Shown: positions 6,741 to 25,462 of the stretch, in pieces
Numbering within the stretch: position 1 is the stretch's first letter
Layout of the letters: each line of letters opens with the position of its first letter
DNA from: a virus
IMG/VR virus record: IMGVR_UViG_3300022542_000814
Span: 1-29,655 of that record
Length of the DNA: 29,655 bases
Reading direction: 5' to 3' (one strand)
Made by a program: the position numbers and the translations under genes
The notes under the pieces: generated by a model
The model's database searches: none
What the model saw: only the letters and a program-made list of their open reading frames with translations
What the model was told of the DNA's origin: nothing

Positions 6741-6743
6741 CTT

Positions 6744-7490: not shown

Positions 7491-7506
7491 CCAGAGGAGA
7501 TGGCAG

Positions 7507-9456
7507 ATGACCGTATCAATATCCCCAAAGGAATATCACGCTCAACTAGAGAAGTTGCGGAGCTGTAATGGTCACTCAGTTGCGGTTGATACAGAGACCA
7601 CTGGTCTGAGTTGGTTCAAAGACAAGCCCATTGGAATCGGCTGGTACTGTCCTGAGGCTGACTCTGAGGGGTATATTGACCTGCGCCCAGAAGGGACCTT
7701 GGACCAAGTCAGGCGAGTGATGACCCAAATGTGGAATCGGGAAACAACCACGGTCATCTGCCACAACCTCAAGTTTGACTTTCACTTCTTGGACATCCCA
7801 CCCAGAACGTTCAAACGGATTCTGGATACGACCGTGATGATACATCTTATTGACTCACGCCACAAGAAGGCCCTGAAGCAAGCTGAGTTGACGTTTCTTG
7901 GGATAACCACCAAAGCAGAACACGTTGCGAGTCACGGCAGGAAAAAGATTTGGGATTGGCCCGTTGAGGACGTGGCCAAGTACTGTATTGATGACTGTCG
8001 CTCCACCTGGAAGCTAGCTGAATTCCTGATGCCTTTCCTACGAAAAATGATGGTGCTGGAGTTGCTCAAATCCGATATGGATTATCTGAAAGAACTCTGG
8101 GCCATTGAGAGGCACGGGATGTATACCGACCTGGAATTTGCCAGATACGGGGTTGCCCGGCTACAGGTGGATATTGACGAGTTGGAAGAGAAGCTGTATG
8201 AAGGCGTGGGCTATACCTTCAACTGGCGCAGTCCTCAGCAGCTCAGTAAGGCCCTGTACGAGCATATGGGCATCGAGAAACCAAAGGACCCGTATGCTGA
8301 CCCAGATGGAGTCTATCGAGGAAGATTTGCAACTGGCACAAAATACAATAGCACATCCACCAACACGTTCATCCTCTTGGAAAAAGTTGTCTGGATTGAT
8401 GAGGAAGGGGTTGAACATACCGGACATCCTCTTGGCGATGTCGTCAGCCTGTTGAGAGAAGCCAGAAAGTTGCAAAACGTTCTGAAGAAGTGGCCCACGC
8501 TGGTAGATGACCAGGACCGACTACACACCAATTTCAATATCACCGGGACTAGGACTGGGCGCCTGTCAAGCTCAAAACCAAATCTACAGAATGTTCCAGG
8601 CTCATGGCGAGTCAAGTTCACCCAGACTGTGTTCTCAGGAGAGTTGGAGCGACCCATTGCCTACAACCTACGCAAAGCTATCGTTGCACCGCCAGGAACC
8701 GTACTGGTCTCAATCGACTGGCGTCAGCAAGAGCTGCGGATGTTCGGGCTATTGGCCGAGGACCCCAACATGGTCCCTGCCCTGGAGACTGGTCAGGATA
8801 TCCACTCATTCGTTGCTGACCAGGTGTGGGGTGCGCACGACGTATTCCACAGGGGCATGGCCAAATCTATCACATTCGGGCTCATCTATGGGACAAGCAC
8901 GGCGAGTCTATCCCACAGGCTGAATATGAGCCGGACAGAGGCCAAGCAGGTCACGGACCAATATTGGACTGCGTTTCCGGCTATCCGGCCATTCAGAGAC
9001 CGTACCGTGGAGCATTGCCTCAAGTATGGCTATGTTCGCAACTGGGCAGGGCGCTATTGGTGGGAAGAGGCGCAGGACCGTGCCTACAAAGCAGTGAACT
9101 TTCTGGTCCAGGGGGGAGCAGCCGACCAGCTGAAGTATGCTGTCATCCGCTGTCAGAAATTCCTACGAGATACAAATGCTGAATCACGCATCGTCTCAAT
9201 CGTCCACGATGAACTGATATTTCAGATGCCCAGGGAAGAGTTGTGGATGGTTCCCGACCTCTGCAAAATCATGGAGCTGCCTGATGTTTTTGGTGTGGTG
9301 TTTCCAGTCGATGTTGAGATGGGATTGAATTGGGGAGAGAAACGAGAAATCCCAGAAGCCGATTTGCCAAAGCTGACCACAGGGGCGCAGCCAAAGCTGC
9401 CGAATGATGAGGGCTGGCGAAAGGAATGGGCAAAAATGCAAGCAACTGGGCCATAA
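7507..9456 (+). CDS. polA: DNA polymerase I family (family A) with 3'-5' exonuclease
   Basis: The protein has 649 residues, the length of a phage polymerase without a 5' nuclease. The proofreading domain has Exo I VAVDTETTGL (Asp28, Glu30), Exo II NLKFDFHFL and Exo III YCIDD. The polymerase domain has motif A SIDWRQQELR (catalytic Asp404), motif B R449-x3-K453-x3-FG-x2-YG on the O helix, and motif C IVHDELIF (His567, Asp568, Glu569). Phe457 is in the position where Tyr makes some enzymes tolerant of dideoxynucleotides, so this one should discriminate. It is the phage replicative polymerase. GAGGAG at 7494-7499 sets ATG 7507. It closes the early module; a promoter follows. Confidence 0.95.
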   Translation: MTVSISPKEYHAQLEKLRSCNGHSVAVDTETTGLSWFKDKPIGIGWYCPEADSEGYIDLRPEGTLDQVRRVMTQMWNRETTTVICHNLKFDFHFLDIPPRTFKRILDTTVMIHLIDSRHKKALKQAELTFLGITTKAEHVASHGRKKIWDWPVEDVAKYCIDDCRSTWKLAEFLMPFLRKMMVLELLKSDMDYLKELWAIERHGMYTDLEFARYGVARLQVDIDELEEKLYEGVGYTFNWRSPQQLSKALYEHMGIEKPKDPYADPDGVYRGRFATGTKYNSTSTNTFILLEKVVWIDEEGVEHTGHPLGDVVSLLREARKLQNVLKKWPTLVDDQDRLHTNFNITGTRTGRLSSSKPNLQNVPGSWRVKFTQTVFSGELERPIAYNLRKAIVAPPGTVLVSIDWRQQELRMFGLLAEDPNMVPALETGQDIHSFVADQVWGAHDVFHRGMAKSITFGLIYGTSTASLSHRLNMSRTEAKQVTDQYWTAFPAIRPFRDRTVEHCLKYGYVRNWAGRYWWEEAQDRAYKAVNFLVQGGAADQLKYAVIRCQKFLRDTNAESRIVSIVHDELIFQMPREELWMVPDLCKIMELPDVFGVVFPVDVEMGLNWGEKREIPEADLPKLTTGAQPKLPNDEGWRKEWAKMQATGP

Positions 9457-9486
9457 CGACAGAGTTGGCCCAACTTTACTTTTTTT
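9447..9486 (+). terminator. Possible intrinsic terminator after the DNA polymerase gene
   Basis: TGGGCC (9447-9452) can pair with GGCCCA (9467-9472) over a 14-nt loop; alternatively AGTTG pairs with CAACT at 9463-9475 in a compact hairpin. A run of seven T follows at 9480-9486. The stems are short, so termination may be weak. The site separates the replication genes from the packaging genes and lies just before a promoter, which is the expected place. Confidence 0.4.
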
Positions 9487-9503
9487 CGATTCTAGGGTAT
9501 AAT
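9475..9503 (+). promoter_or_regulatory. Sigma70-like promoter for the packaging/structural genes
   Basis: TTTACT (9475-9480, four of six bases of the -35 consensus), a 17-nt spacer with a T-run, and a perfect TATAAT (9498-9503). It is in the only sizeable gap between the two main modules. The predicted start of the transcript, near 9510, falls on the AGGAG ribosome site of the next gene, so the 5' leader would be only about 10 nt, which is unusual. Confidence 0.55.
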
Positions 9504-9520
9504 AAGACTAGGAGCAAACT

Positions 9521-10153
9521 ATGCCACGTGATGCCGTGAAGAGTACATCTTCACCCATCGATGCCAGGCGTTTGGCAACTCAAGGAAAACGCTGCAAGGG
9601 CAAAACAAAAAGGGGCACTCCTTGTCGGAGATGGGCTATCATCGGCAGGGATTATTGTCATTGGCACAGTGCAGACGATAAGCGACCTGAGCCGAAAAGT
9701 GATTTCAAAGCTGAGCCCTCAAGTTTGCCCGGGATGACCTTGAACGATGTACACGATAATGAAAGGCAAATCGCAGCTAAAATCAAACGCAAAAAGGCAG
9801 CTGAAGTAAGGACCGAACTCAAAAAGAAAAAGAAACAACAGGCGACTGCTGAAAGAGCCGCAAAAGACCTTGTTGGCGCAGTAGACAAGCAGTTGGTTGC
9901 GGCCGGCAATACCGCATTAATCCCTATTGGAGACACCAATCTCAGAACTCTTGAAAACTGTCTGATGTTGATTGAATACGCAGTCGATGAGATTCTTGAC
10001 CTTGCACCCAGTCTAACCAAATCCAAAACTCTCATCCAGGCGGCGAGAACGGCTGGGCAACTTATCATTCAGGCAGGGGTTGCCGATAAGGCTGTCCAGT
10101 GGTTCCAAGACAATGTTAAGCTAGTGGCTAATATAGATTTGGACCAAATCTAG
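9521..10153 (+). CDS. Zinc-motif protein in the small terminase position (putative TerS)
   Basis: The protein has 210 residues. Residues 25-49 carry a Cys-x9-Cys-x10-Cys-x2-His motif (RCKGKTKRGTPC ... YCHWH) like the small zinc-binding motif found in many phage proteins encoded next to terminases. Residues 80-115 are a Lys-rich coiled coil (KIKRKKAAEVRTELKKKKK), and the C-terminal third is helical. Place before TerL and a DNA-binding, oligomer-type build suggest the small terminase subunit, which recognises the packaging site. The radical SAM gene separates it from TerL. AGGAG at 9510-9514 sets ATG 9521. The TerS role is an inference from context. Confidence 0.55.
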   Translation: MPRDAVKSTSSPIDARRLATQGKRCKGKTKRGTPCRRWAIIGRDYCHWHSADDKRPEPKSDFKAEPSSLPGMTLNDVHDNERQIAAKIKRKKAAEVRTELKKKKKQQATAERAAKDLVGAVDKQLVAAGNTALIPIGDTNLRTLENCLMLIEYAVDEILDLAPSLTKSKTLIQAARTAGQLIIQAGVADKAVQWFQDNVKLVANIDLDQI

Positions 10154-10162
10154 GAGAAAAGC

Positions 10163-11140
10163 ATGCTAGAAAAGCACGCCCAGCAACAGCCGTACCATCC
10201 TTGGAGTATCCAGGTAGCACTGGTCCAAGGTTGTAATCGTCGCTGTTGGGTCTGTGGTATCAACGGGGTGCCTAAAGAAAAACAAATTGGCCGCAACCGC
10301 ATCGAACTGGGTGTACTTGAAAAGACATTCACGCAGCTGGCCAAGTGGCTGCCCAAGATTCGAGTGGAAATCAACTCCCATGGGGAGCCGACCCTGCACC
10401 CGAAGTTTTACGATTGCCTACGAGTGATGCGGGATGTCTTCCCAAAAGCATCGCTCCAGCTCCAAACCAATTCCGACCTCTGGTACAAAAACCCAGTGGA
10501 TGAGATTGAGCGGATGTGGGATGCAGGACTCGATGCCCTCATCATCAACTGCTATGCTCAAGGCCGCAGGGAGTATTTTGTCAAGACGCTAACCGCTGCA
10601 AATATCCCATTTGTCGATTATTACTACAACAACCCAAAGAATGAATCTGGGAATCGGTACAGAAAACCAGGGAGTCAATTCATTTTGCTATGGGAAGATT
10701 TGGGGATGGTCAACGAGACATCGGTCAGGGGAGACACGAAACGAACCAACAAGAGACTCCACAACTCAGGAGGCAACTGCGACCAAGATGAAATTGCTCT
10801 CAGGACGGGACAGAGAGTATATCCCCTGCCCTTACCGTCCAAGTGCTCCAAAGTATTCAGGGAGCTGATTCTCAATTGGGATGGGACCATACCTCTGTGC
10901 TGTCAAGATTGGAACGATGTTCAGCTGATGGGGGATATTCAGACCACTCACATCAGAGACATTTGGTTTGGGGAAAAGTATCATCTGGCCCGACAACTCC
11001 TATACCGAAGGCGTAGAGATTTACTGAAGCCGTGTAGTGCTTGCAACGACCCGACTACACGAGTTGGACTGATACCAGCACCCCAGGCGATGCTTGAGAT
11101 GTCGGATGAAGAAATTTACCAATGGTGGCTGGCGGCATGA
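10163..11140 (+). CDS. Radical SAM enzyme with SPASM-like C-terminal cluster domain
   Basis: The protein has 325 residues. GCNRRCWVCG gives the Cx3Cx2C site (Cys24, 28, 31) for the 4Fe-4S cluster that cleaves S-adenosylmethionine. NSHGEPTLHPKF is the family's GGEPTL-like strand with Gly-Glu. The C-terminal half has a SPASM pattern: CSKVFRELILNWDGTIPLCCQDW, then GDIQTTHIRDIWFG, then CSACN, so seven or more Cys for an extra cluster. Such enzymes modify peptides, proteins or small molecules; the target is unknown and no obvious precursor peptide lies nearby. AGGAG precedes ATG 10163, and the gene ends overlapping TerL by four bases (ATGA). It is an unusual insert between terminase genes. Confidence 0.85.
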   Translation: MLEKHAQQQPYHPWSIQVALVQGCNRRCWVCGINGVPKEKQIGRNRIELGVLEKTFTQLAKWLPKIRVEINSHGEPTLHPKFYDCLRVMRDVFPKASLQLQTNSDLWYKNPVDEIERMWDAGLDALIINCYAQGRREYFVKTLTAANIPFVDYYYNNPKNESGNRYRKPGSQFILLWEDLGMVNETSVRGDTKRTNKRLHNSGGNCDQDEIALRTGQRVYPLPLPSKCSKVFRELILNWDGTIPLCCQDWNDVQLMGDIQTTHIRDIWFGEKYHLARQLLYRRRRDLLKPCSACNDPTTRVGLIPAPQAMLEMSDEEIYQWWLAA

Positions 11141-12408
11141 TTAAGCCAGTGAAGCAGGCACCCTACCGACCATATGGCGCCTGCCGTGACCTATTCCACA
11201 ACCGGCGTGCCGAGCTGCTTATTGAGGGCCCAGCAGGAACTGGAAAGTCAAGAGCCGTCTTGGAGAAGATTCATTTGGCTGGGTTGAAATATCCAGGGGC
11301 AAGATTCTTGATGCTCCGAAAGACAAGGACCAGCTTGAATACCTCTGGACGGGTCACGTTTGACCAGAAGGTCAAAATCCCAGCCGTTGTCTGGGAGGCC
11401 AGCAAAAGCCAATACCTGTTTCCTACTGGCTCCGTGATGGTAGTGGGGGGGATGGACAACGCCAGTCGCATCCTATCAACTGAATATGACATTATCTATG
11501 TTCAAGAAGCAACCGAAATTGACCAGGCCGAATGGGAAACGTTGCTGACCCGACTCAGGAATTACACGATGCCATATCAGCAAATCATCGGAGACTGTAA
11601 TCCCAGCTCAGAAACGCACTGGTTGCTGAGACGGCATAGCCTGGGCCACCTAAAGCGATTGTACTCAAAACACACCGACAATCCGATGTTGTATTCTCAT
11701 GCTACCGATACCTGGACAACTGAAGGACTAGACTACATCGACAAACTTTCCAAGCTAACTGGACACACCAAGGAACGTCTGCTGTTGGGACGTTGGGCAA
11801 GCGCAACCGGAGCAGTCTATCCAGAGTATGAACCAGGCCCGCATTTGATTGAGCCGTTTGATATTCCACTAGGCTGGAAGAGGTATCTTGCAGTTGATTT
11901 CGGATTTGTGAATCCGTTTGTCTGTCAATGGTGGGCCGAGTCACCTGATGATACCCTGTACATGTACAAAGAAATCTATTACACCGAAAGAACTGTCAAA
12001 GAACATTCGGCTCAAATCGTTGAGGAATGCGAGAAACACGAACCAGCCGGAAAGATACCACTAGCCATTTGTGACCATGACGCAGAGGACCGCGCCACGC
12101 TCCGAGAGAACGGCATCAAGACCAAGCCAGCGCAGAAGGCAGTGATACAAGGAATTGAAAATGTCAAATTCCGGCTGATTGAGGACAAAATCAAAATATT
12201 CAGGGGAGCAACACTTGAGACCGATGTCCGACTATTGGATGCAGGTATTCCGACCTGTACTGCTGAAGAATTTGGCGGCTATGTTTGGGACCCGAAAAAA
12301 GAACAACCGGTGAAGCAAAAAGACCACGGGATGGACAGCATGCGATATATGGTTCAGCAACTGGATGGCTTGAATCCGAGACGAAAAGTCAGGAGCATGA
12401 GGAAGTGA
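11137..12408 (+). CDS. terL: Terminase large subunit
   Basis: The protein has 423 residues. It is the ATP-driven DNA packaging motor and headful or site-specific nuclease at the capsid portal. ATPase domain: Walker A GPAGTGKS (residues 31-38) and Walker B YDIIYVQEATEID with catalytic Glu. Nuclease domain (RNase H-like): LAVDFGFVNPF with the first Asp, AICDHDAEDR with further acidic residues, and DHGMDSMRYM with the last. Length and motif order are standard. ATG 11137 overlaps the radical SAM stop (ATGA); an in-frame ATG at 11122 is possible, but neither has a strong ribosome site, so translational coupling is likely. Confidence 0.95.
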   Translation: MIKPVKQAPYRPYGACRDLFHNRRAELLIEGPAGTGKSRAVLEKIHLAGLKYPGARFLMLRKTRTSLNTSGRVTFDQKVKIPAVVWEASKSQYLFPTGSVMVVGGMDNASRILSTEYDIIYVQEATEIDQAEWETLLTRLRNYTMPYQQIIGDCNPSSETHWLLRRHSLGHLKRLYSKHTDNPMLYSHATDTWTTEGLDYIDKLSKLTGHTKERLLLGRWASATGAVYPEYEPGPHLIEPFDIPLGWKRYLAVDFGFVNPFVCQWWAESPDDTLYMYKEIYYTERTVKEHSAQIVEECEKHEPAGKIPLAICDHDAEDRATLRENGIKTKPAQKAVIQGIENVKFRLIEDKIKIFRGATLETDVRLLDAGIPTCTAEEFGGYVWDPKKEQPVKQKDHGMDSMRYMVQQLDGLNPRRKVRSMRK

Positions 12409-12437
12409 CCCAACTATTTACAAAGCTGAGGTGTTGA

Positions 12438-13898
12438 ATGTCTGAGGAATTTTCAAGGACCGATCTACAAAAAGCAATTCTATTCAACCAAGCACTTGGC
12501 TCCGTAAGACGTCAATTGCTGGATGGGATGTCAACACATGGCGGCAAACGTCAGTTCAATATTGTACTTGGCTATCCTGAAGAAATCACCACAGACCAAT
12601 ATCTGACTCGATACTACAGACAGGATATTGCCGGCCGCATCGTAGACCTCCCGGCGACCGATACCTGGAAAGACCCACCCAAGCTAACACAGGGGAATGA
12701 GGAAGAGACAGAATTCATCAAGGCCATCAAGCAGTTGGTAGAGAAACTCAGGCTGTGGTCCGTCATCACAAGAGCCGACCGTATCAGCGGCATTGGTACA
12801 TTCGGTGGAATCTTCATCGGCTACAAAGATGGGCTGGACCCGGCTGAAGAAGCAATCAAAGGCTCAGCGAAGAACCCAGATGGTGTCCTCTTCATGCGCC
12901 CATTCAGCGCAGCGAACGCCAAGGTCAAAACATTTGTTACAGATACTCAGTCCGAGAGATTTGGGCTGCCGCTGATGTACCAGCTGACTGTGGAAAACAA
13001 CAAGACCATCGACGTTCACTGGACCAGAATACTCCACATCGCAGACAACCGCATCGACTCCGACTGGGAAGGCATCCCCAGGCTACAGCAAGTTTGGAAT
13101 CGGCTGGACGATTTGTACAAAGTTGTCGGTGGCTCGGCAGAAGCAAGCTGGCTCAACATGCGACCTGGAACCGTCATCACTACGCAGAAAGATGCAACTC
13201 TGGACCTGGACGATGACGAGGTCAAAGAAGGAATTGAAGCAGAGATTGAAGAATACATCCACGGCATGATGCGTTTCTTGACGCTGGAAGGAATTGACGT
13301 CAAGCAGCTGCAGGGCCAGATGATGGACCCGAAAAGCCAATTTGAAGTGGAGATTGCCCTCATCAGTGCAGCCAGCGGAATCCCACAACGGGTGCTCTTG
13401 GGCAGCGCAGCAGGAGAGCTAGCAGCAGCGCAAGAGGATACCAAACAGTGGTACGGCACAATCACCTCACGTCAAGCCAACTATGCGGAGCCGGACATTT
13501 TGCGACCGCTGTTGGCTATGTTTGTTTGGATTGGGGCTATCCCTGACCCTGGAGAGGACGGCTATGAAGTTGAATGGGTGTCCTTGTTTGAAGCCAGTGA
13601 CCAAGAGAATGCCCTGACAGCAGAGACGTGGGCCAAAGCTGTTTCGGCTATGGGGGCTGAAGTATCCAACAAAGAGAAACGAGTCATGCTGAATCTGCCA
13701 GACGAAATCCCAGACGATATGAGGGACCTGGTTGAGCCAGTTATCCCTACCGCAACCGATGTTGAAAATGTCGCACCAGAATCTCTGGTTGTGGCGGCAG
13801 CGGCCAGGAATCTAGCCAAGGGGCTCATTACCAACGAGCAGTATCAAAAATTGCTTGAAGGACTGTTGGAGGATTTTGGTGCAGCTGACAGCGAATGA
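12438..13898 (+). CDS. Portal protein (DUF1073-like)
   Basis: The protein has 486 residues. It forms the ring at the capsid vertex through which DNA is pumped and to which the connector binds. The N-terminal part has the DUF1073 hallmarks: DIAGRIVDLPATDTWKDPP, then ISGIGTFGGIFIGYKDG and FMRPFSAANAKV. The C-terminal clip/stem half has SGIPQRVLLGSAAGELAAAQEDTKQWY followed by a Q-x-N stretch, as in other portals of this group. It directly follows TerL and precedes a MuF-like protein, as expected. GAGGTG before ATG 12438 is the ribosome site. One of the only two GATC sites outside the 16-kb cluster is at its fourth-to-fifth line of codons (12462). Confidence 0.88.
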   Translation: MSEEFSRTDLQKAILFNQALGSVRRQLLDGMSTHGGKRQFNIVLGYPEEITTDQYLTRYYRQDIAGRIVDLPATDTWKDPPKLTQGNEEETEFIKAIKQLVEKLRLWSVITRADRISGIGTFGGIFIGYKDGLDPAEEAIKGSAKNPDGVLFMRPFSAANAKVKTFVTDTQSERFGLPLMYQLTVENNKTIDVHWTRILHIADNRIDSDWEGIPRLQQVWNRLDDLYKVVGGSAEASWLNMRPGTVITTQKDATLDLDDDEVKEGIEAEIEEYIHGMMRFLTLEGIDVKQLQGQMMDPKSQFEVEIALISAASGIPQRVLLGSAAGELAAAQEDTKQWYGTITSRQANYAEPDILRPLLAMFVWIGAIPDPGEDGYEVEWVSLFEASDQENALTAETWAKAVSAMGAEVSNKEKRVMLNLPDEIPDDMRDLVEPVIPTATDVENVAPESLVVAAAARNLAKGLITNEQYQKLLEGLLEDFGAADSE

Positions 13899-14481
13899 CA
13901 CATACAGTGACTATCTGAGGTCACTGCGGGCAGTAGCCAGGGGATTGTGGCTTGGGGTGATGGACTATTCTCAAGCATTTGATGCACTGGATGTTGCTAT
14001 CCGAGTAGGAATTACAAAAGCCTGGTATGGTGGACTCGATGAGGCAGGGATTGCTCCAGTAGAAATGAACGAGCAAGAACGGCTGGCCCTGAAAGATATG
14101 ATAATGGACGAGCAACTGCAAGTTGATGGATTCTTGTCTTTCTGTATCGAGAACAGCAAGGCTGCAGGGGCTGCTTGGGCGACCTGCGATTACAAAGCCC
14201 ACCAATGGGCGATGCGGGCAAAGGATGCTCGCAACAAAGCACTAACGATGGCGAAATCCGACCCAAAGCTGATGTGGCAGTTAGGCGGGACAAAAACTCA
14301 CTGCCCCACCTGCTCAAAGCTGAATGGGAAGGTCAAACGAGCATCTTACTGGAGAGCCAAAGGTATTCAGCCGCAGAACTATCCAAATCCGCTGCTGGAA
14401 TGTGGGGGATGGCGATGTGACTGCGAACTGACACCTACCGATGAACCGTTGAGCAAGGGACCATTACCAAGTGTACCATAG
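13879..14481 (+). CDS. MuF-like minor head protein with C-terminal zinc site
   Basis: The protein has 200 residues, shorter than full MuF proteins. The N-terminal two thirds are helical. The last third has the Cys pattern of phage minor head proteins: HCPTCSKLNGKVKRASYW, then LLECGGWRCDCEL, four or more Cys plus His that should bind zinc. It is made in small amounts and sits inside the head near the portal. GTG 13879 is chosen since GGAGG (13868-13872) is six bases upstream; it overlaps the portal gene's end by 20 nt. TTG 13855 would be an alternative longer start. Confidence 0.72.
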   Translation: MQLTANDTYSDYLRSLRAVARGLWLGVMDYSQAFDALDVAIRVGITKAWYGGLDEAGIAPVEMNEQERLALKDMIMDEQLQVDGFLSFCIENSKAAGAAWATCDYKAHQWAMRAKDARNKALTMAKSDPKLMWQLGGTKTHCPTCSKLNGKVKRASYWRAKGIQPQNYPNPLLECGGWRCDCELTPTDEPLSKGPLPSVP

Positions 14482-14490
14482 GAGAAAACA

Positions 14491-14946
14491 ATGATACTTG
14501 CATCAAGTCTGATTGAGCTGATTGGCCCCGATGAACAAGTTGACCAAAATGAGTACAGCGCCAGCGTGGCCCTGTCCCTACAATCAATCGGAACCGGAAA
14601 GATTGAAGCTGTCACACTCAGGACAATCGAAACAGGGTCAGGAGTAATCTTGACCCCAGCAGGTACGCTCCTATTCCTGAATGCAGACCCTGCTACAGCT
14701 GCTGGAGACACCGACCTGACTGCGGCTGAGTGGGCAACGGTTGTCGGCATCATCGAGATTGCGGCAGCCGATTGGGTTGCTGATACTGCTGGAGCTGCTG
14801 TTGTGGGAATCCCTGACAAGGCATTTCCATTTGAGACCTTGAGCAATTTGTATATGGTCTGGCTCCACACCGATGCAACGTCATTCAATAGTCTTGCAGG
14901 CGATGATGAGAGTCTACATGTGGTGGTTAGGCACGTCATCAACTGA
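14491..14946 (+). CDS. Hypothetical virion-associated protein
   Basis: The protein has 151 residues, rich in Ala, Thr and Ile and predicted to be mostly beta, without membrane segments. It contains SGVILTPAGTLLFLNADP and SNLYMVWLHTDATSF, patterns seen in small phage decoration-type proteins, but no family is certain. AGGAG six bases before ATG 14491 overlaps the MuF stop region. It opens the block of beta-rich genes between MuF and the protease, so a virion surface role is likely by position. Confidence 0.6.
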   Translation: MILASSLIELIGPDEQVDQNEYSASVALSLQSIGTGKIEAVTLRTIETGSGVILTPAGTLLFLNADPATAAGDTDLTAAEWATVVGIIEIAAADWVADTAGAAVVGIPDKAFPFETLSNLYMVWLHTDATSFNSLAGDDESLHVVVRHVIN

Positions 14947-14958
14947 AAGAGAGCTACC

Positions 14959-15414
14959 ATGAATCAAACTCATACGGTTGAAGTTTGCGCAGGCAATTTG
15001 GAATTCCCAGGCCAAATGCTAGGGCGTATGAATTTGGTTCCAAAAGATGGGCACTGGACATTTTCAGAAGATTGGGCCACTATCAGCGGTCATTTCCATA
15101 CCTCTGGAGTAGAACGTTTGGCTTTGTGGGCAAGAATTGAAATCAATGACTCTGAGAAGATTCAATTCAGGCTCAGGGGAAAGCTACATCAAATATCAAG
15201 CACGTTCATCCTACCGACGAAAAAGGCAATTGGGCTGGTAGACCAGAGACTGGAGAATGGAAAGTTGATATTGACTGACCAGGACCAAAACATTGCGATT
15301 TGCTGGGAACTGTGTGCGTGTGTCCCCATCACAATCATCCAGGCAAGAGTTGTCACTGCTGGGGAGAACCCGGCGCAAATTCTATCGGCTTGCATGACTA
15401 CATCAAGCCACTAA
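14959..15414 (+). CDS. Hypothetical virion-associated protein
   Basis: The protein has 151 residues and looks all-beta: alternating strands such as MLGRMNLVPKDGHWTF and ERLALWARIEIND, with several Cys near the C-terminus (CWELCACVP). I do not recognise a family. GAGAG stands before ATG 14959. It has the same length as the gene just upstream, but I see no clear sequence likeness between the two. Likely a structural protein by location. Confidence 0.55.
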   Translation: MNQTHTVEVCAGNLEFPGQMLGRMNLVPKDGHWTFSEDWATISGHFHTSGVERLALWARIEINDSEKIQFRLRGKLHQISSTFILPTKKAIGLVDQRLENGKLILTDQDQNIAICWELCACVPITIIQARVVTAGENPAQILSACMTTSSH

Positions 15415-15428
15415 CAGGAGAGTGAACT

Positions 15429-15782
15429 ATGGCACGGACAGACGTTTCAGTTACAGATTTGATTGGTGCATACGGCGACTATAGCGTTGCCAATGTCGCA
15501 GACCTGACCTGGCAGGTTGCGGACATAGTCAACGACAACCAGGTGCTTTTGAAAGAAGGTGACATCTTGTTGTTCTGGAATCAGGGCGTAGGCGCCCAGA
15601 CCGTCACCATCAACTCCGTGGACTTGTATGGACGAACCGGCGACATCACTGCCTATTCCGTGGGCATAGATGAAATTGCCCACTTTGGTCCAGTCAAGGC
15701 ACCGGGTTGGCGCCAGACAGACAGCTATCTGTACTTTGAAGCCAGCACCGTTGACATCTATTGGTGCGTGCTCCGAGCGTAA
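15429..15782 (+). CDS. Small decoration-like structural protein
   Basis: The protein has 117 residues. Its order of elements resembles a group of roughly 110-residue phage head proteins: MARTDVSVTDL at the start, an asparagine-rich loop before KEGDILLFWNQG, then a TVTINSVDLYG strand, HFGPVKAPGW, and a final YFEASTVDIYWCVLRA. In that group these are beta sandwiches thought to sit on capsids. AGGAGAG precedes ATG 15429. The assignment is by pattern and place only. Confidence 0.6.
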   Translation: MARTDVSVTDLIGAYGDYSVANVADLTWQVADIVNDNQVLLKEGDILLFWNQGVGAQTVTINSVDLYGRTGDITAYSVGIDEIAHFGPVKAPGWRQTDSYLYFEASTVDIYWCVLRA

Positions 15783-15800
15783 GCTAACGAGAGGTGACTG

Positions 15801-15863
15801 ATGATAAAACTATCGACTGGAACAATTGTGATGGACTTCGCAGAGAAATCAGGAGACAGGTAG
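15801..15863 (+). CDS. Tiny reading frame with ribosome site, possible remnant
   Basis: Twenty codons (MIKLSTGTIVMDFAEKSGDR) start at ATG 15801 behind GAGAGGTG and end in a TAG two bases before the next start. The AGGAG of the next gene lies within its 3' end. It could be a small peptide that couples translation, or the stump of a gene cut when the adjacent compositionally foreign gene arrived. There is no independent evidence that it is expressed. Confidence 0.25.
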   Translation: MIKLSTGTIVMDFAEKSGDR

Positions 15864-15864
15864 C

Positions 15865-16473
15865 ATGATACGCTTTTATCTCGCACCTTATGGGCCAGGC
15901 TACATTCCCAGCCGCCCCGACACCAATGCCAGCAAGGTGATTCTCTACCTGTCAGGGAACGATAGTCATGCGGCGGTCCGCGCGAATCCTTGGAAAAATT
16001 GGTGTCTGTCTTGGGTGAACGTGGTTGAGGCAACGCACACGGCAATCCAGGCCGACGCCGCGATCACGCTTATCCCGCTGTGGGACAGCGGCATGGAGTA
16101 CCTGCCCGTATCAGCACAGGTGTCTGAGATCGTGGAACCGTACCGCACTCAGATCGTGACGTTCCTTGAGAATCACTACGTGCCGACCGAGTGGATCGTC
16201 GGCACCACGACTATCGCTCAGGTGCTGCGGCGCATCATCCAGATTCTCTTGACTGTGCAGCGGCTCAAGGAGAATTATCCGGAGTTCAGCCTGGAAACGC
16301 AGATCAGCGCCATCCCGTCGCAGCAGCGGCAACGCATTCTGGCTTGGATGGTGGACCACGGCATCGAGACGGCTGACATCGATCTGAACTGGACGATCCG
16401 CCAGGTGTTACGCCGCATCATCCGTGACTATGGATGGCAACCGATTTATCACTTTGGGACCGCACTATTATAG
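15865..16473 (+). CDS. Unknown protein, compositionally foreign, with repeated QVLRRII motif
   Basis: The protein has 202 residues: a strand-rich N-terminus (IRFYLAPYGPGYIPSRP) and a helical C-terminal half. Two helices share the motif I-x-QVLRRII (16213-16239 and 16396-16422), which suggests an internal duplication. I do not recognise a family. Seven of the window's nine GATC tetramers lie here (16062-16398), and it is richer in CG dinucleotides than its neighbours, so it was probably acquired recently from another phage or host. AGGAG at 15851-15855 sets ATG 15865. It may have come with the next gene, with which it forms a pair. A structural role is likely only by position. Confidence 0.65.
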   Translation: MIRFYLAPYGPGYIPSRPDTNASKVILYLSGNDSHAAVRANPWKNWCLSWVNVVEATHTAIQADAAITLIPLWDSGMEYLPVSAQVSEIVEPYRTQIVTFLENHYVPTEWIVGTTTIAQVLRRIIQILLTVQRLKENYPEFSLETQISAIPSQQRQRILAWMVDHGIETADIDLNWTIRQVLRRIIRDYGWQPIYHFGTALL

Positions 16474-16480
16474 GTGAATT

Positions 16481-17098
16481 GTGACCGTCGTTTCTGATAA
16501 TTTTAACCGCGCCAATGAAAACTTGGAGGCCAGCGCCAACTGGAGCATGGACGATGGCGGCACTGGCGTGCTGCGAATCGTCAGCCAAGCGGTGGAGGAA
16601 AGCACTGCAGCCTACATCGTCAAGTATCGTTGGGTTGGGACGGCACTGAGTGGAGCAGATAGTTATGTACAGGCGGACATTAACACCGGAACTGATGATT
16701 GGGATACGCCGATGGTTGGCCTGCGCCAGACAGCGGGCACGGGTGCCAGCAACAACGATGGCTATGCGGCAGGGCCATCGAATGCCGACACGCACTATCT
16801 ACTAGAAATTACCGATGGCAGTGAATCAGTCCTCGGGTCGTGGGGGACACCAGCCGACAACACAACCTATGCGTACTATCTAGAGGGCGACGGTAACAAC
16901 CTAGTAGTCGAGATAGATGGGACAGAACGGATTAGCACGACAGATTCCACGCAAAGTACCGCCTCGGTAGGAATATTCTGGGGTGGCTGGGGTAGTGCTC
17001 CGGATGGTCGTATTGACAACTGGGAGGCAGGAGATCTGGGTGTAAGTATCCCGATTGCAGCGATACTGGTAAGTCAAGCTAGACGTAGGAGAGCATAA
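16481..17098 (+). CDS. LamG/concanavalin-like binding protein (putative virion adhesin)
   Basis: The protein has 205 residues. The opening VVSDNFNRAN...LEASANW and the periodic beta strands ending VGIFWGGWGSAPDGRIDNWEAGDLG are typical of jelly-roll, laminin-G-like sugar-binding domains carried on phage surface proteins. The C-terminus is a short hydrophobic stretch followed by RRRRA (IPIAAILVSQARRRRA), perhaps an anchoring tail. The start is GTG 16481, with AGGTGA close upstream. One GATC lies at 17033. It is probably exposed on the virion and binds glycans or cell surface; that is inference. Confidence 0.6.
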   Translation: MTVVSDNFNRANENLEASANWSMDDGGTGVLRIVSQAVEESTAAYIVKYRWVGTALSGADSYVQADINTGTDDWDTPMVGLRQTAGTGASNNDGYAAGPSNADTHYLLEITDGSESVLGSWGTPADNTTYAYYLEGDGNNLVVEIDGTERISTTDSTQSTASVGIFWGGWGSAPDGRIDNWEAGDLGVSIPIAAILVSQARRRRA

Positions 17099-17974
17099 AT
17101 GCAAGAACTCAGACAATCTACAGCCACAGCAGTAATTGTTGGGCCATTTCTGGATGAGACAGATGGAATAACTCCAGAGGAGGCTCTTACCGTTGCCAGC
17201 ATAGATACCGACCTCTACAAATTTAGCAATACCCACCCACTTACTGCTACCAGCATTACACTGACCACCAGTGGTGGCAGCAATGACTGCGTCCATGTGA
17301 ATAACGGATACTACTCACTGGAGTTGACGACTACAGACTCCAATACGTTGGGTAGGATGCGGTTGACACTAAATATCTCTGGAGCAGTCCCGGTTTGGGA
17401 AGAGTTTGCTATCATCCCCGCAAACGTGTGGGACGCCAGGTATTCCACAGATTACCTCCAGGTAGATACTATCCAAATAGAAGGTGTGGACGCGACAAAT
17501 CAAATTAACGCAGAATGCGACCAAGCCCTAACTGATTATGACCCACCGACGATGGCTGAAATGGATACTGGTCATGGATTGCTCGCTACCGAGGCCAAGC
17601 AGGACATCATCGACACTGTGGTGGACGCTATCCTGGCTGACACAGGCACAGACGGGGTGGTACTAGCTACTGGGGCGGTAAATGCTAATGCTGTGGCTGA
17701 CAACGCAATTACTGCTGATTCGCTTGTGGCAGCTGTTTACACTAGAATCGCTGACTTCATTCTGAAACGGAACATGGCAACTTGTCGTGCTTCTTCAGAC
17801 GGTGACAAGACAGGACGATTCATCCTACAGGCATTCGCATTCTTGCGCAACTATCGGTTCGATGATTCTGGAACGCTGCGAGTCAAGCAGGAGGATGATA
17901 TAACAGATGACTGGACCGCAGCACTGGGTACCAATCCCAGCGCTAATCCAGTCGATTCGGTAGACCCGACATGA
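17099..17974 (+). CDS. Phage structural/adhesin-like protein
   Basis: The protein has 291 residues. The N-terminal 110 residues (AVIVGPFLDETDGITPEEAL ... NNGYYSLELTTTDSNTLGRMRL) match a recurring beta-sandwich unit in metagenomic siphophage surface proteins. The centre (TEAKQDIIDTVVDAILAD) is a helix, perhaps for trimerisation, and the end (CRASSDGDKTG ... RVKQEDDITDDWTAALGT) is the usual closing domain in that group. The start follows the previous TAA directly with AGGAG ahead. It overlaps the next gene by four bases. Likely a virion surface protein; no enzyme motif is seen. Confidence 0.65.
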   Translation: MQELRQSTATAVIVGPFLDETDGITPEEALTVASIDTDLYKFSNTHPLTATSITLTTSGGSNDCVHVNNGYYSLELTTTDSNTLGRMRLTLNISGAVPVWEEFAIIPANVWDARYSTDYLQVDTIQIEGVDATNQINAECDQALTDYDPPTMAEMDTGHGLLATEAKQDIIDTVVDAILADTGTDGVVLATGAVNANAVADNAITADSLVAAVYTRIADFILKRNMATCRASSDGDKTGRFILQAFAFLRNYRFDDSGTLRVKQEDDITDDWTAALGTNPSANPVDSVDPT

Positions 17975-18309
17975 CAAGCCCGTATCCAGTTATTGTCTAT
18001 GGTGATGGCTCCACCTATCAGGGACCGTGGGAAAAGGCACCCAGTCATCGAAATGTCCAGGCGATAGTGTTTTGGGACCTAAAGCTAGGATGGACCATCC
18101 GACACGGAGGTCAAGAAAACAGCCCATGTGATTTCTTTAGAGTGGCTAATGATGGCTCTGTGGTAGGAATGGACCAGGCGGGCATGATAGACTACGTGGT
18201 TCATGACCTGGGCCTTATCAAACAAGGTAAAATGCTATCTTCAGCCGAATGGCAAGAAATACTCCGACAGGCTATGAAGTTGAGAAATGAACTGAGAGAA
18301 GTCGACTAA
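17971..18309 (+). CDS. Hypothetical protein
   Basis: The protein has 112 residues: a beta-rich N-terminus (YPVIVYGDGSTYQGPW) and a C-terminal amphipathic helix (EWQEILRQAMKLRNELREVD). No family recognised. ATG overlaps the previous TGA (ATGA) and its TAA shares a base with the next ATG, so it is embedded in the adhesin-like operon. It might be a chaperone or accessory for the large repeat protein after it, a common arrangement for fibre genes, but that is a guess. Confidence 0.6.
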   Translation: MTSPYPVIVYGDGSTYQGPWEKAPSHRNVQAIVFWDLKLGWTIRHGGQENSPCDFFRVANDGSVVGMDQAGMIDYVVHDLGLIKQGKMLSSAEWQEILRQAMKLRNELREVD

Positions 18310-20423
18310 TGGGCACAGCAAACACCGTATGCGCTGACTGGAGATGGGCGCAAGATACGGCTGCTCGCAACTGGATAGAACTTGCTCACACGGACCTATC
18401 GAGTCCTGACTCATGGCTCGATGTCAATATTTGTATCCGTATTCTGCTAGATAATACTGGGTCAAAAGACGAAACAGATGGGTACAAAATTCAGTACAGA
18501 GTCAATGCCGAGACTTGGACAGATATTACAACTACATCCAGCTATGTCAAAGCAGTCAGCAGCAGCAACTTCACCGATGGGGATAGTACCAGTCAGGAAC
18601 TGGGCTCTGGCACCTTTGATGAGGGGTACTGGGATGATGACGGAGGCATTGCTAGCTTTACTCTGGCACAGGGGCAGGAATCAGAGAACGAACATTGTAT
18701 CCAGTTCATATCTACAGACTGTGCGGGAAACACAATCGAAATACGCGTTGTCTTTGATGATGGTAGCGCTGTTGACGGCTATACCTATTCCGACCCATCC
18801 TGTATCTTTGCTGCTGGTGGGGCAACAATCAACTTTTCAGCTACTATGGCTGGAGCATCGACAACTCCAACCAATTCTGTATTAGCAGTCACACGAGCAT
18901 TCTCTGCAATCCTACTAGGAGCAAGTTCAACTCCTGACAGCTCAATTCTAGGATTGAAATATCAGCTTTCCGCAATAATGGCAGGAGACAGTTCAACTCC
19001 TACAACCAGCGTCTTGGCTATCCTACGAGCACTGTCTGCTACTTTAGCTGGTAGTTCAACAACGCCAGACGATGCGGATTTGTCAATATATGCCGGAGCC
19101 GACCTGGCCTGGATATTGTGGGGTGGGTTGACTGGAGCAGCCGTCTCAGGAGTAGTGAGCTTTTCTGCCACGATGACCGGAGCAAGTTCAACTCCTGATA
19201 ATAGCGTCTTGGCTATAGTGCGGGGGATGTCAGCGACTATAGCGGGCAGCTCCACAACGCCTGACACTAGCGTTCTAGCCATTTTGCGAGCATTTGCTGG
19301 AACGATGGCAGGAGCATCTTCAACGCCTGACACTAGCGTCCTGGCCGTCCTGAGAACGATGTCTGCAGTCCTAACAGGAGCAAGCTCAACTCCTGATACT
19401 AGCGTTCTAGCTGTCTTGAGAACTATATCTGCGACGATGACAGGGGGCAGCTCAACTCCAGATACCGCTACTCTGGCTCTCTTGCGAGCATTGTCTGCTA
19501 CTATGTCTGGAGCCAGTTCAACTCCAGATGACGCAGTCTTGGCTATCCTACGAGCATTTGCCGCAACTATGACAGGAAGCAGCTCAACTCCTAATGATGC
19601 GATATTGGCAATCAAACGAGCAATGGCTGCGACAGTGACGGGAACCAGTACAACTCCTGATGATGTAATTTTGTCTTTGGCCGGAATTATCAGTTTTGTA
19701 GCAACAATGGCGGGGACCAGCTCAACTCCTATTGATTCTGTACTAGCCATCAAACGAGCTATGGCTGCAACAATGACAGGGGGGAGCACAACACCTGACG
19801 ATGTAATCTTGACTCTAGTAGGAATCATCAATTTCATAGCGACGATGGCTGGAACTAGCACAACGCCTGATGATTCTATACTAGCAGTCAAACGAGCACT
19901 ATCTGCAACTTTGACAGGGGAGAGCACAACGCCTGACGATTCTGTACTAGCAGTCAAACGAGCAATGACTGCAATCCTAGCAGGAGACAGCTCAACGCCT
20001 GATGATTCTGTACTAGCAGTCAAGCGAGCACTCGCAGCAACTATGACTGGAACTTCAACTACACCTGATACCGCGATGCTAGGACTTATCTTTGCACTAG
20101 CGGCGGTAATGACAGGGGATAGCTCAACACCCGATACTGTGGAGCTACTAAAGAAATTGAACTTCCAAGCAGGAATGGCAGGTCAAAGTACAACGCCTGA
20201 TGATTCAATACTAGGACTTGCTTTGTCACTTACAGCGACGATGACGGGGCAAAGCACCACTCCAGATGACGCAATCTTGACAATCTTGGGTGCCGCAATA
20301 CAAGGATTGATGCTGATGTCGCTATCAGGACGGCTGCCAAATATAGGTGTTACTGGACAAAAACCAACAGTGGGTGTAGCCGGGCAGCAACCCACAATAA
20401 TCATCGACAGGGAGGATTCATAA
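18309..20423 (+). CDS. Large repeat protein with 21 copies of a 22-residue motif (fibre/adhesin-like)
   Basis: The protein has 704 residues. Residues 1-175 form a beta-rich, acidic domain. Then come 21 copies of a unit built round S-[ST]-T-P-D-x-x-x-L, spaced mostly 22 residues (66 bp) apart: alternating A-x-M-x-G, STPD and VLAVKRA segments. One short break lies after the fourth copy (YAGADLAWILWGG), where the period is longer. The C-terminus has short GVTGQKPT / GVAGQQPT repeats. The regular pattern suggests a solenoid or extended fibre. Copies differ in codons, so selection keeps the protein pattern. It should be a virion surface or fibre protein; it may vary in copy number. Confidence 0.72.
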   Translation: MGTANTVCADWRWAQDTAARNWIELAHTDLSSPDSWLDVNICIRILLDNTGSKDETDGYKIQYRVNAETWTDITTTSSYVKAVSSSNFTDGDSTSQELGSGTFDEGYWDDDGGIASFTLAQGQESENEHCIQFISTDCAGNTIEIRVVFDDGSAVDGYTYSDPSCIFAAGGATINFSATMAGASTTPTNSVLAVTRAFSAILLGASSTPDSSILGLKYQLSAIMAGDSSTPTTSVLAILRALSATLAGSSTTPDDADLSIYAGADLAWILWGGLTGAAVSGVVSFSATMTGASSTPDNSVLAIVRGMSATIAGSSTTPDTSVLAILRAFAGTMAGASSTPDTSVLAVLRTMSAVLTGASSTPDTSVLAVLRTISATMTGGSSTPDTATLALLRALSATMSGASSTPDDAVLAILRAFAATMTGSSSTPNDAILAIKRAMAATVTGTSTTPDDVILSLAGIISFVATMAGTSSTPIDSVLAIKRAMAATMTGGSTTPDDVILTLVGIINFIATMAGTSTTPDDSILAVKRALSATLTGESTTPDDSVLAVKRAMTAILAGDSSTPDDSVLAVKRALAATMTGTSTTPDTAMLGLIFALAAVMTGDSSTPDTVELLKKLNFQAGMAGQSTTPDDSILGLALSLTATMTGQSTTPDDAILTILGAAIQGLMLMSLSGRLPNIGVTGQKPTVGVAGQQPTIIIDREDS
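18838..20290 (+). repeat. Tandem 66-bp coding repeats
   Basis: About 21 diverged copies of a 66-bp unit encode the 22-residue S-[ST]-T-P motif; the best-conserved DNA core resembles AGCTCAACTCCTGATGATTC. Copies 5 to 11 and 15 to 17 are most alike, as expected from recent local duplication. The even multiple of three also keeps frames on the other strand open, so long antisense frames there are artefacts. Confidence 0.8.
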
Positions 20424-21250
20424 TGGGCAGCCTATCAAACTTTTCAGAAGCAGAACTGCTTGACCATGTGTACAATGTGGCCTATTCAGCAACACCAACG
20501 CTGAGTCTTGCTCTTGCCTCAGCAGACCCAGGGGATGCAGCAACTGGGGCAAGCATGAATGAGCTGGCTAACGCCAACGGATATGCCAGAACAACTATCA
20601 CGTTTGGAGCGGCTGGGTCCAGGCTCATCACGCAGAACGCTGATGTTGACTTTCCACAAGCAACTGGTGGGGGTTGGGGCACCGCATCTCACTGGGCAGT
20701 CCTTGACAATAGCAGCTATGGCCTTGGAAACGTCTTGGCCTCAGGAGCATTTGCTGTAGCCAAGCTCATCAACGACGGCAATACCCCGACTGTTGCATCG
20801 GCTGAGGTATATGTCCAGATTGATGCAAATGAGATTTCAGACTATTTGGCCCTGAACTGGCTAGACCTGATGTTTCGGAATCAGGTATTTGCCAAACCTG
20901 CGACGTATGTTGGGCTGACCACAGTCATCATCACCGATGGTATGACTGGCACAACTATCACAGAGCCGAGTGGTGGGGCCTATGCTCGCAAGCAAGTCAA
21001 TATCAACGGTGGCGCTTCACCGACCTGGGACATCGCAGTTGAGGCCGACCCATCCTATGTCGACAACACTCACATCATCACATTCATCACCGCAACGGCA
21101 TCATGGGGTACCATCGTGGGAGTAGCAATTTGCGATGCGGCAACGGTGGGTGAGTTGCTGATGTACGATAACGGGATGACCGACCAGCTAGTGGACAACG
21201 GAGACACGGCAGAATTTGCGGCGGCAGCACTTGTAGCGCAGCAGTCCTAG
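20423..21250 (+). CDS. Phage tail-fibre/virion protein with duplicated domain
   Basis: The protein has 275 residues containing two related halves. Each has the order of the common small phage virion domain: helix with ELLDHVYN or YLALNWLDLMF, PTLSLALAS or PATYVGLTT, then YAR-x-x-x, then WGT-x-x-x-x-x-x-x-D, and a loop before a final strand. The pairs YARTTITFG/YARKQVNING and TASHWAVLD/TIVGVAICD show the duplication. Members of this family are surface proteins in siphophages. GGGAGG precedes ATG 20423. It follows the repeat protein and could cap or accompany it. Confidence 0.65.
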   Translation: MGSLSNFSEAELLDHVYNVAYSATPTLSLALASADPGDAATGASMNELANANGYARTTITFGAAGSRLITQNADVDFPQATGGGWGTASHWAVLDNSSYGLGNVLASGAFAVAKLINDGNTPTVASAEVYVQIDANEISDYLALNWLDLMFRNQVFAKPATYVGLTTVIITDGMTGTTITEPSGGAYARKQVNINGGASPTWDIAVEADPSYVDNTHIITFITATASWGTIVGVAICDAATVGELLMYDNGMTDQLVDNGDTAEFAAAALVAQQS

Positions 21251-21273
21251 TATTCGACTAGGCTGGAGGCATC

Positions 21274-21609
21274 ATGGCAATAAGCACGCTGAGTACTGTA
21301 GCCAAAGAAGGTGGGACTTGTATTCTCACTCTTACATTTCTCGATGAGGATGGAAACGCAGTCACGCCTACGTCAGCGACCTGGACGTTGACTGACTCCG
21401 ATGGAGCAGTCGTCAATTCCAGATTGAATGTTGTTATCTCAGCTTTGGGCCCAACAGCCAGCATTGTTTTGACAGGAAATGACTTGCCTTCAGGCAGCCA
21501 CTACCTGGAAGAGCTACTGCTGACTGTAAACGCAGTTTATGATTCAGTGGCTTATGGAAATGGTTTGCCCCTTATCGGTCAAGTCATAATCCCAGTGGAA
21601 GCAGTATAG
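21274..21609 (+). CDS. Small Ig-like virion protein
   Basis: The protein has 111 residues. A single beta sandwich is suggested by KEGGTCILTLTFLDEDGNAVTPTSATWTL, an opening typical of Ig-like folds, followed by ASIVLTGNDLP and a regular strand pattern. It lacks any enzyme motif. GGAGG before ATG 21274 is a good site. It may decorate the virion. A 57-nt gap with no clear gene follows. Confidence 0.6.
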   Translation: MAISTLSTVAKEGGTCILTLTFLDEDGNAVTPTSATWTLTDSDGAVVNSRLNVVISALGPTASIVLTGNDLPSGSHYLEELLLTVNAVYDSVAYGNGLPLIGQVIIPVEAV

Positions 21610-21666
21610 TAACAAAGAACGGTTGCATGAATTGCGCAAAATAGTGAAAACACAGGAGGCAAGACA

Positions 21667-22206
21667 ATGGCAGGAAAAAGTGTAGCAATTCTCAAAACTC
21701 AGTTTCTGGGGACCGACCCTCAACACCAAAACGACGATGTTTTGGACCTGGTGGATGAGTTGGATGATGCATTGGATGCGGAATCCAACTCATATGGAGA
21801 ATTGGAGGCCACTGGAGCATCAGCTGCACAGACGCTGGCTCTGGGTGTAGCCGAAATTCTGGATGCGTTCGATGCTGATGGACCATCCAGTTCAGACATT
21901 ACCCCTGCTCACGCAACCAACCTCATCACTTGTGCTGCGGCCGGGGTATACTTGGCGATGTTTCACGCATCGTTCATCAGCTCCACAGACGGCGAAACTT
22001 ATCTATTCCAGTTTGCCATCGATGGAACTCCTGCAGGCCCTGGTGTCAAGAAGGAACTGGTGCTGGGCGCTGACCAGGAATCAATTGCGATGAACCGTGC
22101 CCTGACTTTGACCGCTGGTCAGACGCTTGCTGTCTGGGTCACGACCACGGCCAATGGCAACATCACCGTTGACGAGTGCGCCCTGGTTGTCCAGAGACTC
22201 GCATAG
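21667..22206 (+). CDS. Virion protein with C1q/TNF-like C-terminal domain
   Basis: The protein has 179 residues. The N-terminal 60 residues form an acidic helical segment (DDVLDLVDELDDALDAESNS) that could be a trimeric coiled coil. The remainder resembles C1q/TNF-like jelly rolls of phage fibres: CAAAGVYLAMFHASFISSTDG, then FQFAIDGTP, then LTAGQTLAVWVTT with the typical ending VDECALVVQRL. Such domains make trimers and may bind receptors. CAGGAGG precedes ATG 21667. It ends the adhesin-like block just before the protease gene. Confidence 0.6.
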   Translation: MAGKSVAILKTQFLGTDPQHQNDDVLDLVDELDDALDAESNSYGELEATGASAAQTLALGVAEILDAFDADGPSSSDITPAHATNLITCAAAGVYLAMFHASFISSTDGETYLFQFAIDGTPAGPGVKKELVLGADQESIAMNRALTLTAGQTLAVWVTTTANGNITVDECALVVQRLA

Positions 22207-22217
22207 GAGAGAGAATT

Positions 22218-23786
22218 ATGGGTGACCTACGATACAACATTTTCAAAACTCTTGAGGCCAACTATCGCCAAGACCATCTTTGGGGGCGACCGTACATTGT
22301 TGCCCCTGTGGTGCCGATTGTAGCTGGCGTTCTGAATGGGGAGCTAGTGCCCTTGGGCGAAATCGCACCCGGCTATGAGTCTTGGAATGGCAGGCCAGTC
22401 ACGCTGGGTCACCCGGTTGTTGACGGAACGCACGTGACGGCGAATCACCCACAAGTGGTGGAAGCCTTCACTATCGGCCAGCTCTTCAATGTCGCACTGG
22501 ATGACCAACGTCTCACTGGAGAGATTTGGATTGACATCCAGGTGGCTGAGCAATCAGAAGATGGCAGAGAACTTTTGGAGAAGTTGCGAGAGGGAGAACC
22601 TGTCGAGGTATCCACCGCATACTTCAGAGATTTGGAGCCAATGGCTGGGGACCTCAACGGCATCCCATACAAAGGGGTTGCCAGGGGGATGAAACCAGAC
22701 CATCTGGCAATTCTACTCCACACCCTGGGTGCTTGCTCCTGGGCTGATGGTTGTGGGGTGCCCAGGACAAATACAGAATCAGGGGAGAGCGAAATGAACA
22801 AGAAAAAGAAAACAGACCAGGAAATGGTACCTGTGGAGCCGGTTGAGCCGACTGAAGACCCCATCGTGAATTTGGAGAACCCAGTTGACCCTGACCCGGA
22901 GCCGAAAGACACACTCACGTGGCTGGAGAGGTTCACAAGCAACATCAAGGCAGCTCTATTTGGGAATGAGGAAGAGTCTTTTGAGGAGCAGTGGAATGCG
23001 GTGATTGGTGAATTCTACTATCTCATGGACTCTGGTCAGCCCATTGGAGACGTTGGAGACGGCTATGTCATGAAAGTGTGGACCGACCACATTGTCGTGG
23101 AACGTTCGGATGGCAAATTCTTCAGCATCGACTACACCAAGGACGCTGAAGGCAAAATTGAATTCACCACCGTGGTGGAAGGCGTCATGGCGTTTCAGCC
23201 AAATGCCGCTGAAGAAGAGAATGAAGAAGAGGATGACGGCGCAGATGAGCTGGTACCGGAAAGCGACAAGGCACCGGACCAAGCTGCCGTGAACGATGCT
23301 GCTCCTGAGGCAGATGACCCCGCTGATGTGGATGACGACAACACCGAGGACCCGGAAAGCGACAAGGCACCGGATGCTGAGCCGATTGTCGACAACGCAG
23401 AAGAAGATGATTCTGAATCAGAAGCAGAAGAGCCGACCGACCCAGTTGAGAACCGCTGCCAGGACTACATCGAACTGGTAGATTTTGCGGATGCTCAGGC
23501 AGGACCCGGCTGGGCCCTGACCGTGCTCCAGGATGCTGTGGAGGCAGAGGTTCAGCTGCGCCAGGGACTTATCGAGAAACTGGCCGCAAATGATGCCTGC
23601 GCCTTCAACGCCAAGGACCTGGAAGCGATGAACGACGAAACGTTGACCAAGCTGGATTTGACGGTAGGTGCGCCTGTTGCCAATTACAGCGGTCAACCCG
23701 AACCTGTGACCCCCAAACCAGAGAATCCGACTGGGACACGCAGGCAAATCACGCTACCACCGTTGAGTGGTGGCCCGACGCAATAA
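22218..23786 (+). CDS. Prohead protease fused to acidic scaffold (DUF2213-like)
   Basis: The protein has 522 residues. The first 190 residues look like DUF2213-type phage proteases: SWNGRPVTLGHPVV with a His, GQLFNVALDDQRLTGEIWIDI, and EGEPVEVSTAYF with a Ser in the place of the nucleophile. The next 330 residues are extremely acidic and Pro-rich, with PESDKAPD repeated twice, as expected for a scaffold cut and removed during maturation. ATG 22218 follows GGAGAGA; upstream in-frame starts would overlap the earlier gene. It precedes the decoration protein and capsid gene, the expected place. Catalytic residues are inferred, not proved. Confidence 0.72.
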   Translation: MGDLRYNIFKTLEANYRQDHLWGRPYIVAPVVPIVAGVLNGELVPLGEIAPGYESWNGRPVTLGHPVVDGTHVTANHPQVVEAFTIGQLFNVALDDQRLTGEIWIDIQVAEQSEDGRELLEKLREGEPVEVSTAYFRDLEPMAGDLNGIPYKGVARGMKPDHLAILLHTLGACSWADGCGVPRTNTESGESEMNKKKKTDQEMVPVEPVEPTEDPIVNLENPVDPDPEPKDTLTWLERFTSNIKAALFGNEEESFEEQWNAVIGEFYYLMDSGQPIGDVGDGYVMKVWTDHIVVERSDGKFFSIDYTKDAEGKIEFTTVVEGVMAFQPNAAEEENEEEDDGADELVPESDKAPDQAAVNDAAPEADDPADVDDDNTEDPESDKAPDAEPIVDNAEEDDSESEAEEPTDPVENRCQDYIELVDFADAQAGPGWALTVLQDAVEAEVQLRQGLIEKLAANDACAFNAKDLEAMNDETLTKLDLTVGAPVANYSGQPEPVTPKPENPTGTRRQITLPPLSGGPTQ

Positions 23787-23822
23787 CCAATATCAAACTG
23801 AAACAGGAGGATTGAAATGGCT
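23771..23822 (+). repeat. Duplicated translation leader, copy 1 (before decoration gene)
   Basis: TGGCCCGAC, then a CAA-rich spacer, ACTGAAACAGGAGGATT and GAAATGGCTG. The same order reappears at 24309-24363 before the capsid gene with a few single-base differences. Its first part is the end of the protease coding sequence, so copy 2 was probably derived from copy 1. Confidence 0.7.
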
Positions 23823-24290: not shown

Positions 24291-24304
24291 TCTAGGCAAC
24301 CAGA
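24291..24304 (+). promoter_or_regulatory. GCAA-loop hairpin directly after decoration gene
   Basis: TCTAG GCAA CCAGA starts on the base after the stop. Four of five pairs match (one A-C mismatch), and the loop is a GNRA tetraloop. Two further hairpins of this kind follow the capsid and tail tube genes. This one is the weakest of the three. Confidence 0.4.
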
Positions 24305-24308
24305 TAGC

Positions 24309-25443: not shown

Positions 25444-25462
25444 TCTTGGCTGTTGGAACCCG

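Follow-up and report, generated by a model that had tools for sequence, protein, structure and literature searches.

Near-complete loss of GATC from a tailed-phage contig and an unpurged two-gene island consistent with recent import

The word GATC has almost disappeared from the window (the whole stretch of DNA analysed, which is an entire IMG/VR virus record of 29,655 bases). The loss has acted at synonymous codon positions, and two adjacent genes, at 15865-17098, remain unpurged of this word and of two others, CGCG and TTAA. We consider it likely, with a probability of about 0.72, that these features reflect the avoidance of a GATC-directed host nuclease followed by the recent import of a two-gene module. 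In such a scenario, a tailed phage lineage would have been selected against GATC for a long time, most likely by hosts cutting at this word, the candidate enzyme being a type II restriction endonuclease of the DpnII/MboI/Sau3AI kind, or a DpnI-like one if the DNA arrives methylated. Nearly all GATC sites would thus have been lost through synonymous changes. A later recombination would have introduced the module 15865-17098, whose products are probably associated with the virion or a fibre, from a phage free of GATC pressure, and mutation and selection would have yet to purge it.

The window contains the gene set of a tailed phage (terminase, portal, DNA polymerase A, ThyX, capsid protein and tail genes), with all named genes on the + strand. 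The features relevant here are the following:

1-15864: left part, purged of GATC; its sole site, at 12462, lies inside the portal gene
4596-5324, + strand: ThyX (domain match)
7507-9456, + strand: DNA polymerase A (domain match)
11122-12408, + strand: terminase (domain match)
12438-13898, + strand: portal (domain match)
15865-16473, + strand: gene for a 202-residue protein, with seven of the nine GATC sites (GATC 7 against 7.7 and CGCG 3 against 3.0 predicted from its own codons)
16062-16065: GATC, Ala-Ile (GCG ATC)
16128-16131: GATC, Glu-Ile (GAG ATC)
16152-16155: GATC, Gln-Ile (CAG ATC)
16194-16197: GATC, Trp-Ile (TGG ATC)
16302-16305: GATC, Gln-Ile (CAG ATC)
16381-16384: GATC, Asp-Leu (GAT CTG)
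16395-16398: GATC, Thr-Ile (ACG ATC)
16481-17098, + strand: gene for a 205-residue protein, second member of the island, with one GATC at 17033
17099-29655: right part, with zero GATC; tail genes
22176-23786, in the right part: protease-like DUF2213 protein
24358-25443, in the right part: capsid

The first piece of evidence is the depletion itself. A sequence-only reading of this DNA had listed nine GATC sites, seven of them within gene 15865-16473, and a recount found every position to be exact. Its estimate of about 115 sites expected at random was close to the 113.6 given by base composition, while a maximal-order Markov model raised the expectation to 151.4 (observed/expected 0.06) and ranked GATC first in avoidance among the 256 tetramers. 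When the coding DNA was shuffled among synonymous codons, a procedure that holds protein and codon usage fixed, 144.6 +/- 8.7 sites were expected (z = -15.5). The avoidance can also be followed codon by codon in all genes except 15865-16473. There, isoleucine after a codon ending in G is never encoded by ATC (79 cases, all ATT or ATA), compared to ATC in 264 of 417 cases in other contexts; similarly, aspartate before a codon starting with C is encoded by GAC in 133 of 135 cases and by GAT in only two, compared to GAT in 295 of 518 elsewhere. The word has therefore been lost at synonymous positions while the protein was kept, which argues for selection on the DNA and not on the protein, and the shuffle and the codon contexts both back the notion of a specific avoidance acting on the DNA. 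However, GATC, although extreme, is not the sole avoided word: CGCG is the second most avoided tetramer (Markov ratio 0.30), TGCA stands at 0.45, and TTAA is low by the synonymous shuffle (0.15) and less so by the Markov model (0.63). As for the two palindromes said to be common, CTAG is indeed normal (0.98), but CATG is low (0.52).

The second key observation concerns the stretch that escaped. Seven GATC in 609 bp would occur with a Poisson probability of ~4e-14 at the rate found outside, so the clustering is not due to chance; the unit, however, is not a single gene but two, the next one holding the site at 17033. Gene 15865-16473 is neither purged of GATC nor enriched in it, and ATC is used after G in 6 of 10 cases, whereas gene 16481-17098 has one GATC against 1.6 expected, one CGCG against 2.1 and two TTAA against 1.2. 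When both genes were pooled, GATC amounted to 8 against 9.25 (0.86), compared to 1 against 131 (0.008) in the remaining genes (P ~1e-14). The same held for CGCG, with 4 against 5.0 (0.80) and 14 against 67.6 (0.21), respectively (P = 0.02), and for TTAA, with 2 against 2.07 (0.96) and 6 against 47.1 (0.13) (P = 0.03); these last two tests are based on few sites, and neither depends on the GATC count by which the gene was flagged. Since CGCG and TTAA are as unpurged as GATC in both genes, the stretch is better described as an unpurged island than as a GATC-specific device. Its right border may lie a little beyond 17098, as the next gene (17099-17974) has two CGCG/TTAA sites against ~1.9 expected and no GATC against 3.1.

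The proposal that the gene had probably been acquired recently, before its sites could be purged, is supported in the form of a two-gene import, and it is the several avoided words that indicate it, not composition or codon usage. The composition of gene 15865-16473 had been considered unusual, and its GC3 (0.729) is in fact the highest of 40 genes, but its codon score is typical (z = -0.24), which rules out unusual codon usage as evidence for import. Likewise, the repeats noticed in this gene are real (32 nt, 78%) but uninformative on recency; the internal repeat must be old, because the only relative of the protein has a corresponding one. This relative, 56% identical, was found in a search of viral contigs and is encoded by contig L002, in which a relative of the 16481-17098 protein is encoded directly downstream. 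Beyond this pair, L002 and the window have only two proteins in common, 25% identical, and such a module, shared by phages that differ in most other respects, is in line with modular exchange. The pair thus combines deviant usage of several words with presence in an otherwise different phage, as expected of a mosaic module. GATC avoidance in the open reading frames of L002 is slight (42 against 48.6 expected), and its version of the 15865 gene carries one site. The search for a source of this gene yielded no match among 50,697 phage records and no relative in genome contigs. The 202-residue protein had no match in Pfam, PHROG or NCBIfam, and its structure prediction was poor (mean pLDDT 52).

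With eight GATC sites in one stretch, the phage would be sensitive to a GATC nuclease, and was probably under no strict GATC restriction very recently. Strict restriction at this word would now be absent or bypassed: the eight sites could survive in hosts lacking the nuclease, through methylation of GATC, or because the import, being very recent, still rides on modified DNA. None of the window proteins searched was recognised as a DNA methyltransferase, and the protein encoded at 3763-4599 has its matches among general SAM methyltransferase families. A more specific version, which we regard as tentative, is that a lineage purged of GATC, CGCG and TTAA by several restriction systems has switched to a host lacking them, or has added one to its range, and now takes up unpurged modules. 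If so, unpurged islands could mark recent imports and relaxed restriction in metagenomes even where composition and codon usage are silent, and the island would date the host change.

Phages are well known to avoid GATC, and the window is a clear new case, involving no new mechanism. The literature attributes GATC loss both to restriction (PMC6286503, PMC7230728, PMC2194725) and to mismatch repair (PMC5014478). Regarding the former, a survey of type IIM systems found GATC below expectation in 46 of 46 phages of enzyme-carrying hosts (PMC6286503). The window resembles these data in the near-complete loss (<0.1) of a type II palindrome, which in that survey was typical of non-temperate dsDNA phages; it differs from those phages in the two-gene stretch that escapes avoidance. 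GATC is also absent or very rare in the HF1-group haloviruses (PMC7230728) and in BJ1 (PMC2194725), and the ratios for TGCA (0.19-0.45) and CATG (0.35-0.44) in the HF1-group isolates are close to those of the window. However, CTAG is absent or almost absent from these viruses but occurs at a normal level in the window. Nor is the window related to HF1: its resemblance to Halorubrum phage Hardycor1 is distant and confined to the portal and capsid.

The alternative based on mismatch repair holds that GATC was selected against because MutH nicks the unmethylated word, the island still being an import. It was proposed for coliphages: phiX174 has zero GATC against ~20 expected, its mutation rate falls once sites are put back, and in dam- mutH+ cells the yield of phage tends to drop (PMC5014478). 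The elimination of GATC is shared with the window, in which this is the most extreme word, but phiX174 is a tiny ssDNA coliphage and the effect is tied to Dam/MutH mismatch repair (PMC5014478). We consider this explanation unlikely for the window, because the avoidance extends beyond GATC to CGCG and TTAA, whose depletion MutH does not explain and which favours restriction over mismatch repair. Moreover, the same multi-word profile appears in contig L084, the nearest relatives point to no Dam/MutH host, and MutH-family proteins occur in only 2 of 59 genomes carrying terminase relatives; one of these proteins resembles Sau3AI and has two MutH domains.

L084 (IMGVR_UViG_3300032177_000100), which includes L003, encodes a terminase 50% identical to that of the window and is also low in CGCG, TTAA and TGCA; among 101 loci it is the best match to the palindrome profile of the window with GATC excluded (r = 0.76), which suggests similar host restriction repertoires. 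Unlike the window, it has no island (zero GATC), and no window gene besides the terminase was matched in it. This 18,952-bp phage contig has no GATC, its L003 part (15.3 kb) also lacks CGCG and TTAA, and it possibly avoids several restriction systems at once. Among ~140 terminase relatives, strong GATC avoidance is scattered (median ~0.9), with 0 against 64 expected in L003/L084, 0 against 37.5 in L018 and 2 against 71 in L121, as would be expected of a host-dependent pressure. The four of the 59 genomes with DpnII, MutH/Sau3AI or DpnI family proteins showed lower GATC at their loci (exact P = 0.0005). However, this association is suggestive only and was not relied on, because it is confounded: the same four genomes are also low in CGCG (P = 0.003). 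In addition, one DpnII match is also BanI-like. The genome with the most extreme provirus-like locus, L121, had no match to the DpnII, MutH/Sau3AI or DpnI families. A protein with two MutH domains, in a Sau3AI-like arrangement, is encoded at L158:643-1980 in a Saccharibacteria MAG; the phage terminase locus of this MAG has 0.44 times the expected GATC. The terminase relatives themselves (mostly from Planctomycetota, Chloroflexota and Actinomycetota) were rejected as evidence for the host, as were the matches of DNA polymerase, terminase, portal and capsid, which are distant and conflicting (Thermobifida/Streptomyces, Halorubrum and Brevundimonas phages).

Slightly less probable than mismatch repair is that the assembler created a chimera by inserting DNA of another phage as the two-gene stretch. 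The window is a metagenome contig, and the near-identical contig L089 (99.93%), the sole close relative recovered, spans only 19030-29655 and thus not the island. Nevertheless, two false junctions would be required, both at gene borders, and strand, operon spacing and intact frames are all kept across the island genes. Immediately before the start at 15865 lies the stop codon of a short upstream frame, and a similar gene pair is natural in L002. It is very improbable that the cluster, seven GATC inside 337 bp, is functional (a methylation-dependent switch, or a packaging or binding site) and kept by selection. Enrichment or function was rejected given the agreement of the count with the own-codon prediction, the unpurged state of the other words and the single GATC in the L002 relative; furthermore, the spacing is irregular and the codon pairs have synonymous alternatives. 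Finally, that base composition or codon preference explains the low GATC, as several moderately low palindromes of the sort common in phages might suggest, was ruled out almost entirely by the synonymous shuffle, with its z of -15.5 under fixed codon usage and protein, and by the codon contexts, in which ATC and GAT, both frequent codons, are shunned only where GATC would form.

Import of the module into a restricted lineage being the favoured reading, the sharply bounded escape, defined by three words, is a clean trace, left in nature, of recombination between phages of differing restriction histories. Words that are missing can expose recent imports to which codon usage is blind, as with the 15865 gene, and the island opens the timing of a host change or of relaxed restriction to test.

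Several minor observations were made on the contig and its relatives. Repeats of 22 residues (66 nt), for instance SATMTGGSSTPDTATLALLRAL, are numerous in the 704-residue protein encoded at 18309-20423, a probable fibre or surface protein whose gene has the least typical codon usage in the set (z = -5.8). L089 gains one GATC through a change at 19187, inside this repeat-rich gene and close to the end of L089; the change could be genuine or an artefact of the contig edge. The window and L089, which belong to different records, stop at an identical base (29655 and L089:10626), possibly the genome end or the result of assembly from shared data. The C-terminal part of the protein encoded at 2213-3262 weakly matches the 5'-nucleotidase NT5C, and with the nearby ThyX gene it might form a nucleotide-metabolism group. 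A radical SAM protein with a SPASM domain is encoded at 10163-11140, just upstream of the terminase, which is an unusual position.
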